NCBI GenBank assembly: GCA_011109175.1
Contig: RDEW01000051.1
Span: 267,812 to 331,811 of the forward strand
Reading direction: 5' to 3'
From: Dicyema japonicum
Taxonomy: Eukaryota > Dicyemida > Rhombozoa > Dicyemidae
DNA length: 64,000 bases
Made by a program: the position numbers and the translations under genes. Below, piece by piece: positions 1,745 through 34,538 of this stretch; position 1 is the stretch's first letter, and each line of letters opens with the position of its first letter. The notes below the pieces were generated by a model. The model saw only the letters and a program-made list of their open reading frames with translations. It was not told the origin of the DNA and searched no databases.

Positions 1745-2729
1745 TTATATTCCGTAGGCTGTAGTTACAAGTTCACTTACATGGAAAGAAGTTCACATCG
1801 ACAACGCACAACCGTCCAGTCAATGGCTCTTGTATCAGATCAAAGCCATAAAGAGAGATCCCAAAGGCTTCAGAGATCCTCTCAGCCATTGATTTGACCA
1901 CCAAGTCAATTTTCGATCCCTTGAGGATTGAATCCTCCAGTGAGTCGTCTGGCAGGACATCTTTGCACAACTTCTGTGAATTAAACGTGAAACTCTCGTT
2001 TTCTAGAAAAATAAATTTGGACAACCAGAAATGTTTTTCGTGGATTTCCGAATTTGGATGTTATAAAAAAATCCGATTACGTAGACCTTGAAGAGGATCC
2101 CGTGATGATTTAAATACTGCTGAGCCACGTGGGATTTCCCATTCAAATCAAAAGCCTCCAACGACTCCAGATTGGGCAGAATGGTCATCTTGACTTCATA
2201 AAAGCTTATACAAGGTGACTACCGTCCACGTGGGCGTTGCGCGTTTTGAGAACTGAAATGACAGCTAGAATTACTAATTGGGAATGAAATTCCTGTTATT
2301 TTTATATCACAGTTTGGAATAATTTCTGAAAACCAAAGCTTCTTCACATCTTCGTGGTCCCTGAAGCATTCATGGAGGGAAGAATACAGCTCTATTCTAT
2401 CGTACAGACGCTCTACGTTAGCAGGGGGATCTAATATTACCACATCTCTGTTATTTTCAGCCATTTTCTAATTTATTAGGAATTCTAAATTTAACGATGA
2501 AAGTTATCGTAGCAGGAAAACTCTTGTGGATGACAAAATCGATGAACAAATATGTCAGGGCGTAATTTCTCGATGTTAAAATTGAATTGCCCGTCCAAAC
2601 AAATTTCATAAAGCTGAATGTTTTTATTTCTATGTGTCATTATAGCCTTTACAAGCATAGTTGCTTTATTTTGTCATAATTTATGTACTTCTTCCGCTTC
2701 TCATCTAGGCAAACAGCAATTTTTTTCAT
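1745..2729 (-). CDS. ITPK1: Inositol-tetrakisphosphate 1-kinase, ITPK1-like, seven exons
   Basis: ATP-grasp kinase acting on soluble inositol phosphates, expected in the cytosol. The minus strand is read from ATG at 2729 to TAA at 1745, removing introns 2630-2652, 2468-2495, 2253-2274, 2189-2211, 2003-2025 and 1759-1780 (22-28 bp, all GT-AG). This gives about 281 codons. Family landmarks appear in order: KKIAVCLDEKRKKYINY at the N terminus, DIFVHRF, VVILDPPANV, FPIILKTHNAH (ATP-binding strand), LFKVYVIG, KNISENESFTFNS, and VVDVNFFP with the metal-binding Asp and Asn. Two joins are imperfect. Exon 2 to exon 3 is out of phase by one base. The final exon stops after FPSYGI, although a family-like tail (EASFVEYFRFLLEK) follows in another frame at about 1671-1736. 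It may be a real gene with sequencing errors or a very young pseudogene. The family assignment is firm. Confidence 0.82.
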
Positions 2730-3289
2730 CGAGTTTAACTGAATTATTTATCAATAAATTTTATTAATTTTTGGTTTTCCAGTAAAAATTACAAATTTTA
2801 AATTAAGATTAATTTTATAATAATATTAATTAAAGTGGAAAATCATCGAAATTTTTATATTTCTTATTATCATAGCAAGCACTCAAGTCATAATCCCCCT
2901 TAGTAAGCGCCTCAAATTCAGGGAGTTACCTTACACGAACCTGTGCTCTTCGCAGGTTGTCGAAAACGTCACAACAAAATACGATAGGATTAACTTACAG
3001 TAAAGTTTCTTAGGATTATGGAGGTCGGAAACCATCCGATCTCTGATTCCTTATATAAGTAGTAAATCGAGGTGACTTTGTCTCGTTGACCAATTCGGTT
3101 AGATCGTGACTACTCAAAAATCAACAGGTTGACGGAACAGCAGATTTATAAAAAGAAATGTTTGCAGTGACATCTCTTAAGATCTTATTTCGAATGAACG
3201 ATGATGGGTATCTTTTAGAAGTAATTCCATTGATCCCCCATAAGGTAGACTTGTTCAAGTTTACCCGAAGCATATCAACCTCAGAACAG
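2730..3289. other. Intergenic, AT-rich
   Basis: No coding signal or recognisable repeat was seen. The first 120 bases are strongly AT-rich. The rest is unassigned and may be old repeat. Confidence 0.4.
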
Positions 3290-3512
3290 CTATTTAGGAA
3301 CGTCCTATGTATCGTGGAGAGTCAGTTGGGGTAACTTTCGTTTGATCGGCTATCTGATACACCAAGAAGTTAACACCGGCGTCACTCGTCATACCCAAAG
3401 CATCACAGATGAGTGGATTCTTAAGCCAGAATGTACAACAGAGAGATTCGAACCCAGAGCTATCAGGACTTTTCACAGCAAGACACTTCGCCTGCCACCA
3501 CGACTACCACAA
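3290..3512 (-). repeat. tRNA-derived SINE head and body
   Basis: On the minus strand the right end has a tRNA-like promoter: GTGGCAGGCGAAGTG near 3495, then a B box GGTTCGAATCTC near 3450. The rest is SINE body without a clear tail. Confidence 0.55.
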
Positions 3513-3721
3513 AAATAATGTTATTTTTATGAATGTTGTTTTAATAAAAATAAATTTTTATAATAAATTGTTAAAAATTTAAATAATGTATTCCAAAACG
3601 TTTTGTGTCCACGTGTTAAATTTACCAAAAAGAACATTAAATAACTACAACGCATCTTTTAGTCAAATACGCCAAAAATCTGTCAAATTCGATAACAAGG
3701 AAGTATTTTTTTACGTAACAC

Positions 3722-4360
3722 AAGAAATACTATAAACTAACAATCCCAAATGTTCTCAGTGGAATTCGCTTATTATCATCTCCCATAGTGGCCTACCACG
3801 TGCTAAATTATAATCTTGGGACAGCCTCTTGTATCTTTTTTACAGCAGCCTGTTTGGACTATGTAACGTCCCTTGTATTTTATTCTAGCTCGACGGATTT
3901 ATTGCACGGAGATTTGAAGGTCAGAAATCCAGGTTGGGCTCACTTTTGGATCCCCTGGCCGACAAGACCCTCACCGTGTTTACTGTGGGGGCCCTTTTAA
4001 GGGTCTCTCTTCTCCCTGGTAGAATTTTCGGTAAACTTTTATGATTGGTGGTGTTGGACTGTCCTGACACGAGAAATTATTCTGCTCGCAAATTCAGCCC
4101 ACGTGGGTCTCTCAATGGACTGCAAGTACACTCAACTAGCAGTAAGGCCGTCGCTTATAAGCCGTGTATTTAACACTGCTAATTGCTAGGTTAATACATT
4201 GCTTCTGTTTGGAACAATTGCGACGTCCCTGTCTTTGGAGTACGTCCCCACGTGGGTCGATGGGACGGATTGGCTTGTATTGGCCTCATTCCTTACATGT
4301 GTGCTTAGTACAGCTCAATATGTATTATTTCCACGAAAATATTATTATTTCAAAAAATAA
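3722..4360 (+). CDS. CRLS1: Cardiolipin synthase-like CDP-alcohol phosphatidyltransferase
   Basis: Predicted integral membrane enzyme joining CDP-diacylglycerol and phosphatidylglycerol to form cardiolipin in the mitochondrial inner membrane. Conserved sequence begins [19 protein letters not shown] at 3740. After a 26-bp GT-AG intron (3863-3888), the signature DG-x2-AR-x8-G-x3-D-x3-D is complete: [20 protein letters not shown], then DPLADK. Later blocks are [28 protein letters not shown] and a final hydrophobic segment ending at TAA 4358-4360. Intron 4166-4189 is canonical (24 bp). At 4019-4043, removing 25 bp restores both frame and family spacing (LLP...TRE), but the acceptor reads TG, not AG. 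The 5' end is unresolved: I see no clear ATG or targeting peptide, so the start given is only the open frame upstream of TIPN. Confidence 0.75.
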
Positions 4361-32800: not shown

Positions 32801-32809
32801 TCAATAAAT

Positions 32810-33095
32810 GGGGGATTGCGAAAACTGAAGGAAACCTTGCTTGTATGCAATGGGACACGAAACGAGATTACGCCTATACAACGCGTCGGTCAAGCATGTA
32901 GTGCTCTACAACGCGAGCACGTGGGTCTGTTCAGAGACCGACTCTTTCCACCGAACGCAATTGAGGCAAACAATGTCTCCGCTCTGAGAATGGGTTTGGG
33001 GCCCCATATAATGCGGCCATGGAGAACTTCTCGTCTGACAACCCCGATTCGTGGACAACCGAGAACCTCCTAAAGGTTGGGAGAAGATCTGGGTT
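32810..33095 (+). mobile_element. LINE RT C-terminal fragment
   Basis: KHVVLYNASTWVCSETDSFH, then RTQLRQT (about 32892-32975), corresponds to the LLYNxSTW...DSFHRxQLR block near the end of RTE- or L2-like ORFs. It is related to the remnant at 441-560 (SFHRSQLRIW). Frames are broken. Confidence 0.55.
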
Positions 33096-33368
33096 GAATA
33101 CGAGAGCTTACGTAATTTATGTCTTTAATCCTTATTTTCCCGCTTTATTTCTTTCTCAATTCATCTCGTTCAGTTTACATCTCATTTTGATCGGAAACTA
33201 TAAAACTAATCAATAATAGGAGTTATGCAGGAAATAGCTCTTCCCTTTAATATTTCCTGTCTCCTTATTGCCACTCCTTTTTGCATGTGAAAAGGGAGTG
33301 GCCACTTTAATAGCCCAATCAACAGTCACTAGTTAGAGTAGGGTTAACTTTATTAGTCGTAAACCAAT

Positions 33369-34538
33369 CTATAACGTAACCGATTTCCTAATATTAGTAA
33401 GCATAGTTTGACAGGTCTTGTTAAGGTCATAGTTGGCCTTCCACCCCAGTCTGCCTTGGCTTCACTGTCATCCAATGAGTGAGGCCACGAGTCAGCTACA
33501 ATTAATGCATGTTTTACTACCCATATATTGCCTTATAGGGTCATTCTTGTAGGTGATTCTCATATTAGGAACAAACTTAGAAATTTCATCAAATATTTCT
33601 TGGGGTGTGATGTCAAATCCTGAGATATTATAAGTTCTCCTTTTTAGATTCTCATTTGGGGCCATCAGAAAGTCAACAATTCCATTTTCGAGGTCGTCAA
33701 TGTACATCATTGGGAGTCGTGTGTCCTTACTTAAGTAACATTCATATTCTCCAGTCCTGATGACTTGGTGGAACACATTCACTGCATAATCTTGACGTTA
33801 ACGAAATAAGTCACCAGTTGTCCCAAATCCAGGTTCGCTGTCCCAAGAAATAATTCCAGGCAAACGCAGAGACCGAAAATCCAACCCAAACTTGGAGTGA
33901 TAATACTACGTTCTAAATTGATTATACTTCTCCCAAAAGTTCCATAGTGACCTTAGTGACACCATAGATTGATTTCGGTCTCATCACATCTTCGTTTGGA
34001 GTTTTGACTTTTTGGAAATTACCTCCAAATGCTCCTAAACAGTCATGACATGTCCTCACCGATTGTGCTTGGAACAAACAGTTGTAAATTATATTTTGAT
34101 GCTACTTTGAAGGTATTAAAGGTCCCAATCATGTTCACAGACATGGCCAAGTCAAAATTAGTTTCAGCTGCTCCACTAAGTAGAGCGGCATAATTAATCA
34201 GACATGTGATCTTATTATCCATTACTGCTGTTTCTAAGTCACAAATATCCGTCACATCAATTTTCCGATAGGGCCCTTAAATTTCGGTAATTGCGAACCT
34301 TTCTGGAGGACCTGTTTTGGCGGATTTTTGAGGTCAGAAATAATCACATTATTTTTGCCGAATTGCTCTCTTAAAACCTAACTTTTACTTGTCACCTTAA
34401 AACACGTGCAATCCCTAATCCAAGCTGTCCAAGGCCGCCCGTAATCAGAATTTTAGGATTGACCTGTGCTGAGAGTGACTCCCTTCTAACAGACTGCCTT
34501 AAAAAGTTCAAAGAATTATGAAATCTGGTGACAAACAT
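33369..34538 (-). CDS. TDH: L-threonine 3-dehydrogenase, seven exons
   Basis: NAD-dependent short-chain enzyme oxidising L-threonine to 2-amino-3-oxobutyrate in mitochondria. ATG at 34538, TAG at 33369-33371. GT-AG introns 34370-34395, 34276-34298, 34035-34059, 33906-33927, 33791-33814 and 33496-33520 (22-26 bp) give 341 aa. An Arg-rich, nearly acid-free N terminus ([19 protein letters not shown]) fits a mitochondrial presequence. Then come [13 protein letters not shown] (NAD-binding GxxGxxG), [29 protein letters not shown] (catalytic YxxxK), [19 protein letters not shown] and [10 protein letters not shown]. Near the C terminus (about 33446) the expected DWGWK reads as GACTGGGGTGG: one G short in a G run, shifting the last 25 codons. 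A homopolymer sequencing error is the simplest reading; a recent lesion is possible. Confidence 0.88.

Follow-up and report, generated by a model that had tools for sequence, protein, structure and literature searches.

Introns of 20-29 nucleotides and their branch-point signal in a genome that is very likely dicyemid

How can a splice donor be recognized when introns are little more than 20 nucleotides (nt) long and their donors keep little beyond GT? The question is raised by a 64,000-nt stretch of genomic DNA (the window), in which genes resembling ITPK, cardiolipin synthase (CLS), CaMKII, GATAD1, the CAT transporter and TDH are interrupted by introns nearly all of 22-26 nt. As read from the sequence, these are probably spliceosomal introns of the U2 type that have shrunk to 20-29 nt (mode 23 nt) in a dicyemid genome and would be recognized by intron definition with a ruler, a reading to which we give a probability of about 0.9. 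Dicyemids are minute parasites living in the kidneys of octopus and squid, and tiny introns are in themselves already known as established dicyemid biology. Additions that appear worth following are a branch-point signal, a near-unique GT at the expected distance, and a small nuclear RNA (snRNA) of the U12 type.

Introns of the six window genes

Twenty-nine introns were placed in these genes (ITPK 3, CLS 1, CaMKII 8, GATAD1 2, CAT 9, TDH 6), and every one of them is bounded by GT...AG. Four measure 22 nt, nine 23, seven 24, six 25 and two 26, so that 28 of the 29 lie at 22-26 nt; the remaining one measures 29 nt. The original prediction, in which some 40 introns were attributed to the six genes, most of them 22-26 bp long with GT...AG ends, overstated the number but was right in substance about size and boundaries. 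The length distribution and splice motifs, proposed there as a check, gave a mode of 23 nt, GT-AG ends, a weak donor and a T-rich acceptor. Nine placements are based on homology alignment (CAT 7, CaMKII 2), one on a family motif (CLS) and 19 on the gene model alone. Each of the seven CAT introns is recovered by one or more of the five GT-AG alignments to CAT proteins, while the gene model holds all nine. One CaMKII model with GC-AG ends, one CaMKII model of 46 nt and a further CAT intron at 30139 were excluded from the count. The placements, together with one CAT stretch that is taken up below, are as follows (window coordinates, strand, gene and length, basis).

2253..2274, minus strand, ITPK-like, 22 nt; gene model
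2194..2222, minus strand, ITPK-like, 29 nt, the longest of the 29; gene model
2003..2025, minus strand, ITPK-like, 23 nt; gene model
3863..3888, plus strand, CLS-like, 26 nt; gene model, family motif at the join
13268..13291, minus strand, CaMKII, 24 nt; gene model
13180..13202, minus strand, CaMKII, 23 nt; alignment to human CaMKII delta
13083..13106, minus strand, CaMKII, 24 nt, in frame; homology
12788..12812, minus strand, CaMKII, 25 nt; gene model
12643..12664, minus strand, CaMKII, 22 nt; gene model
12537..12558, minus strand, CaMKII, 22 nt; gene model
12397..12419, minus strand, CaMKII, 23 nt; gene model
12298..12320, minus strand, CaMKII, 23 nt; gene model
20756..20778, plus strand, GATAD1-like, 23 nt; gene model
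20945..20967, plus strand, GATAD1-like, 23 nt; gene model
29112..29136, plus strand, CAT, 25 nt; spliced alignment to vertebrate CAT proteins, gene model
29266..29289, plus strand, CAT, 24 nt; spliced alignment, gene model
29604..29626, plus strand, CAT, 23 nt; spliced alignment, gene model
29754..29778, plus strand, CAT, 25 nt; spliced alignment, gene model
30002..30025, plus strand, CAT, 24 nt; spliced alignment, gene model
30163..30185, plus strand, CAT, 23 nt; spliced alignment, gene model
30289..30312, plus strand, CAT, 24 nt; gene model
30364..30521, plus strand, CAT stretch with an in-frame stop and a doubtful 25-nt candidate (30414-30438) inside; frame analysis
30593..30616, plus strand, CAT, 24 nt; spliced alignment, gene model
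30726..30750, plus strand, CAT, 25 nt; gene model
34370..34395, minus strand, TDH, 26 nt; gene model
34276..34298, minus strand, TDH, 23 nt; gene model
34035..34059, minus strand, TDH, 25 nt; gene model
33906..33927, minus strand, TDH, 22 nt; gene model
33791..33814, minus strand, TDH, 24 nt; gene model
33496..33520, minus strand, TDH, 25 nt; gene model

The gene names proposed earlier are supported for CAT (Pfam) and for CaMKII and TDH (sequence matches in PDB), but searches did not confirm ITPK or GATAD1. In the CLS-like gene, excising the 26-nt intron creates a CDP-alcohol phosphotransferase motif, and the name rests on this motif, which we take to be the signature of the family. Alignment of CaMKII without any splice rule gave the same two lengths, 23 and 24 nt, as the GT-AG alignment; the 24-nt intron is in frame, such that a reader of open reading frames (ORFs) would translate through it, and it is visible by homology alone. 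At window 13107-13121 (minus strand), the catalytic loop of this kinase carries HADLK in place of the human HRDLK.

The CAT transporter had been credited with ten introns that all restore the frame. Nine of these (23-25 nt) stand, whereas the tenth (30414-30438, 25 nt) breaks the frame unless a 41-nt partner (30481-30521) is also removed, and it was withdrawn. When alignment alone was followed and lengths of 14-80 nt were allowed, CAT yielded 12 introns, seven of 22-26 nt and the others of 17, 29, 41, 52 and 75 nt; with an identity of ~31%, homology cannot fix every join in this gene. An early rule-free CAT alignment with a low intron penalty was overfitted and was discarded.

Prp8, decoy splice sites and the branch point

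The assembly searched comprises 64.7 Mb in 191 contigs; the G+C content of the window is 38.6%. The gene for the spliceosomal protein Prp8 was located in it through the PROCN domain. Spliced alignment to Lingula Prp8 gave 85.7% identity and 33 introns of 20-26 nt, with the gene readable over 2050 amino acids without a stop. An alignment free of splice rules placed 32 introns, 31 of which match the GT-AG version in order and length. Of these rule-free joins, 18 slide to GT..AG with the spliced sequence unchanged, 12 reach GT..AG within 8 nt with the sequence altered, and two do not reach it. The GT-AG alignment of Prp8 scored 9415, against at most 8517 over nine decoy dinucleotide pairs; the corresponding scores were 484 against at most 449 for CAT, and 1724 against at most 1693 for one actin. 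A second actin, with a frame break, did not discriminate (1525 for GT-AG, decoys up to 1555). Actin matches are numerous in this genome, contigs C94 and C137 each bearing two equally scoring copies, and a frame break lies near the 3' part of actin copy L047 (G000:C111:560900-562200).

A length preference was also recovered when none had been built in. Under a flat length prior of 14-60 nt over 264 kb, 36 of 50 introns inferred with GT..AG fell at 20-27 nt, compared with 2 to 13 of 31-42 introns for nine decoy pairs; the codon model used in this test had been trained on GT-AG models, which is a mild bias. The first codon model missed Prp8 because codon use differs in this gene, and a local model recovered it. 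G+C makes up 12.7% of the Prp8 introns and 19% of the third codon positions (GC3) of this gene (L040, G000:C87:1217500-1227499), whereas 40 gene segments compared with it have introns of 31-48% G+C and GC3 of 32-57%. The possibility that the low-G+C Prp8 contig is a contaminant was rejected, since it bears repeats common to the genome, for example a 455-bp stretch 87% identical to locus L019. At Prp8 sites that are otherwise invariant there are 37 changes here, compared with 31 in Macrostomum, 25 in Oikopleura, 23 in Intoshia and 13 in Paramacrobiotus; Lingula positions 600-1199 account for 22 of the 37, from which no conclusion is drawn.

Splice signals were collected with a retrained gene model, which yielded 279 introns ranging from 17 to 59 nt, with 223 at 22-26 nt, in 38 gene segments of 21 loci, namely the window and a non-random set of 20 stretches around kinase genes. 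The 228 introns of 20-29 nt whose flanking exon pieces measure at least 24 nt were kept and 51 were dropped; the mode of the filtered set is 23 nt. A motif search without prior found a branch-point motif, yTnAyTT, common to these 228 introns, with a log-likelihood of 111.4 compared with 11.9, 16.7 and 20.3 in three interior shuffles that were given fewer starts and rounds. The branch A precedes the last G by 6 nt in 111 introns, by 7 in 56, by 5 in 23 and by 8 in 21, and hence by 5-8 nt in 211 of 228; the distance from the first G to the branch A is 14-18 nt in 196. An A occupies position -8 or -7 in 170 introns where 89 are expected, and TNAY occurs at the branch spacing in 124, against 57 on average and no more than 78 in any of 200 shuffles. 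Acceptors are T-rich and then mostly [TCA]AG. Donors consist of GT, a weak A or T at +3 and then almost nothing, the information at +3 to +6 amounting to 0.505 bits in the 228 introns; a G at +5 is found in 49 of these, in 3% of the 33 Prp8 introns, and in eight of the 30 window introns tabled (a table that includes the withdrawn 30414-30438).

The genes for the corresponding machinery are present. Of 25 U2 matches, 22 lie above the cut-off and the copies inspected carry the GUAGUA box, while U6 gave ten matches, nine of them above the cut-off, with ACAGAGA in both aligned copies. U1 is represented by 11 full-length matches of 45.7-69.0 bits, none of which exceeds the cut-off of 69.5; the 5' end reads ACUUACCUG in five of six aligned copies and ACUUACUUG in the sixth. 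In U1 copy L033 (G000:C126:175730-175889) the 5' end is ACUUACUUGG instead of ACUUACCUGG, and this copy is possibly a variant U1 or a decaying one. SF1 and RED each gave one match above the cut-off, and pieces resembling the large subunit of U2AF are clustered on contig C114, none of them at the family cut-off. Human cells need RED together with Smu1 for introns in which only a short distance separates donor from branch point (PMC6692369). Taken together, the GT-AG ends, the U2-compatible branch motif and the U1, U2, U6 and Prp8 genes support a U2-type spliceosomal identity for these introns, as judged from their sequence.

Choice of the donor site

Donors keep little beyond GT although most of the aligned U1 and U6 copies have canonical ends. 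Recognition would proceed by intron definition with a ruler. At the 3' end of the intron the branch point may be recognized first, together with the nearby AG, and the donor would then be the GT found at the right spacing upstream of the branch point. U1 pairing would be limited to little beyond the AG of the exon plus GT(A). In the human B complex, the helices and the gap between them are estimated to take up ~52 nt from donor to branch point (PMC6692369); at the ~16 nt available here, the extended helices that U6 forms with the 5' splice site and U2 with the branch point would be unable to form together. If both cannot form at full length, this would account for the freedom of donor positions +4 to +6 to drift. 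Consistent with a ruler, no GT other than the real one lies at 20-28 nt in 174 of 226 introns, nor in 31 of the 33 introns of Prp8. Immediately before donors GT is scarce: at frame-shifting offsets 14 occur where 24.1 are expected, compared with 102 against 110.6 far upstream.

Several observations weigh against such an account. Within the introns GT is not depleted (121 against 119.6 expected). Where a frame-shifting GT alternative is present, the donor used lies furthest upstream in 19 cases, furthest downstream in eight and between in one, and both Prp8 introns that have an alternative GT use the downstream one. The branch signal is weaker in the 12.7% G+C introns of Prp8, where TNAY is present in 23 of 33 and shuffles give 15.3 on average and 23 at most. 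Most of the 228 introns come from our own gene model, which was initially seeded toward 21-27 nt, and a few of them may be false, given that the segment at window 41645-42947 is reverse-transcriptase-like. Finally, the stop at CAT 30364-30521 cannot be removed in frame by introns of 18-32 nt, whether one or two are taken out, the only single introns that preserve the frame being of 12 or 75 nt; this stretch may reflect gene decay, a fault in the assembly or an intron of unusual kind.

A possible but doubtful alternative to the ruler is that donors are picked by exonic signals or RNA-binding proteins, with the narrow range of lengths reflecting only size pressure. The lack of depletion of inner GTs would suit it, as would a mild enrichment of AAG at exon ends (A 41%, A 49% and G 53% at -3 to -1 in the 279 introns), but the ~0.7 bits of exonic information held in total at these three positions are too little alone, and GT is mostly unique within the 20-28 nt interval. 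Far less probable is excision of the segments from DNA rather than RNA, as deletion elements. Dicyemids have been reported to rearrange DNA and form circles (PMC6543705, introduction). The uniform small size resembles that of the eliminated elements of ciliates. Against this, the segments have a strand-specific GT...AG polarity and a branch point of U2-compatible sequence at a fixed spacing, spliceosomal snRNA genes are present, and comparison of genomic DNA with cDNA revealed such introns in Dicyema acuticephalum (PMC2222250). That the introns are chance joins in genes whose frame breaks stem from assembly error or decay draws some support from actin copy L047 and from the CAT stretch that resists short introns, yet decoy dinucleotides scored lower in three of the four genes tested and produced no comparable length peak, and for Prp8 chance joins are already refuted by the rule-free agreement and the decoy scores; we give this explanation almost no weight.

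The remaining alternative concerns the organism: another fast-evolving protostome might have shrunk its introns independently. In a tree of Prp8 the sequence forms a long branch within Bilateria (support 99) and has no supported sister; the protostome fork (92) is drawn open, and the Prp8 of the orthonectid Intoshia is not sister to this sequence. Neither the best 120 of 7987 actin matches (animal, plant and protist) nor the 120 Prp8 matches listed include one named as dicyemid, although many are nameless. Such an origin is nonetheless improbable, given that among animals introns of this kind have been described in dicyemids and the donor information matches that of Dicyema. Dicyemid origin, an assignment made by features, is very likely; it was suggested at the outset from intron length and now draws support from that length, the 0.505-bit donors and the long-branch bilaterian Prp8. 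U2-type introns selected by a ruler in a dicyemid genome thus remain the preferred reading.

A U12 snRNA and comparison with known systems

A genome search revealed one U12 snRNA (L050, G000:C68:163471-163599) at 85.4 bits against a cut-off of 53, its branch-recognition sequence GAGUAAGGAAAA intact. The 1.2-Mb contig that bears it (C68) also carries a U2 copy, the RED match and a repeat found in the window that resembles a short interspersed nuclear element (SINE). An snRNA promoter element common to U12 and to U1 and U2 was not found, 10.5% of 1792 random stretches scoring as high. In ~0.34 Mb of loci, overlaps included, no exact pair of RTATCCTT donor and TCCTTRAC branch was present, as is expected for so small a sample; when each motif was allowed a single mismatch at most, 22 candidate pairs appeared. 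We tentatively suggest that a minor (U12) spliceosome may be at work on introns reduced to the same 20-30 nt dimensions, although we regard this as doubtful. Were it so, these would be the shortest U12-type introns known. They would have stayed hidden because a pan-eukaryotic survey of minor introns left out those <30 nt; among the genomes it describes, Blastocystis has the shortest on average, with a median of 39 bp (PMC10639083). The genome would then hold two spliceosomes, with the donor consensus lost in major introns and kept in minor ones. A literature search on minor splicing in dicyemids found no paper.

The SINE-like repeat, tRNA-related by eye, occupies window positions 13862-13987 and 28145-28270, and 41 genome matches to it (these two included) are listed among 1217 first-look candidates. 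Broken ORFs on both strands resemble, by eye in the ORF list, the reverse transcriptase of retrotransposons without long terminal repeats (14415-14804, 23241-23765, 38253-39326, 41642-42819, 43502-44336 and 58724-59395). Degenerate TTAGGG-like repeats at 27380-27610, perhaps an interstitial telomere-like tract, and about three tandem copies of a ~38-bp unit at 9990-10080 were likewise noted by eye. A run of 877 N lies at 49105-49981.

Published dicyemid introns measure about 26-27 nt, with a mean of 26.2 nt in D. acuticephalum (n=16; PMC2222250) and a median of 27 bp across dicyemid introns, about two thirds of which are <30 bp (PMC6543705); those of this genome are slightly shorter, with a mode of 23 nt. 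For D. japonicum, a gene set has been published along with an assembly of 67.5 Mb (estimated genome size 65 Mb), a G+C content of 36.7% and a mean intron length of 38.2 bp (PMC6736024). The 5' boundary of Dicyema introns was described in 2008 as the weakest known, at 0.5 bits, a value close to the 0.505 bits at +3 to +6 here on the assumption that the same positions were counted. The commonest hexamer of the 41 introns in that study, ctaatt, fits yTnAyTT, but its authors stated that dicyemids lack a branch-point signature (PMC2483917), whereas a clear one is present here. The branch-point signal is an addition to known biology that emerges with more introns than were then available; beyond that paper's remarks on the branch point, our literature searches on dicyemid branch points and splice sites listed no other report of such a signal.

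Other lineages have arrived at introns of comparable or smaller size. The orthonectid Intoshia linei is likewise a reduced parasite with short introns, but their median is 57 bp (PMC6543705). Introns measure 20-35 bp (24.8 on average) in Paramecium and 18-21 bp in the nucleomorph of Bigelowiella (PMC2222250), and with both the likeness extends to a high intron density (PMC2483917). Paramecium avoids introns whose length is divisible by three (PMC5014332). In the present genome 11 of 33 in Prp8, four of nine in CAT and 60 of 228 in the model set are so divisible, the last count coming from a model that can miss stop-free introns of this class, as it missed one in CaMKII; these counts give no clear sign of frame-based control of intron length. 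The suggestion that such introns approach the smallest size a spliceosome can handle should be tempered, given that introns of 15-16 nt are annotated in Stentor (PMC9505925).

The present case may matter for its geometry: U1, U2 and U6 of ordinary appearance, alongside a Prp8 that shares 86% identity with its brachiopod counterpart, would work with a donor-to-branch spacing of ~16 nt, compared with the ~52 nt estimated for human. Being full of introns that show a branch point but almost no donor consensus, the genome lets one ask how an otherwise normal animal spliceosome tolerates them and picks its donor. Stentor coeruleus, with introns shorter still, shares the GT-AG ends, a branch A at a fixed position and canonical major snRNAs. 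No minor snRNAs were found in Stentor in that study (PMC9505925), whereas in this genome a U12 snRNA is present and would represent a second machine facing the same constraint on size.

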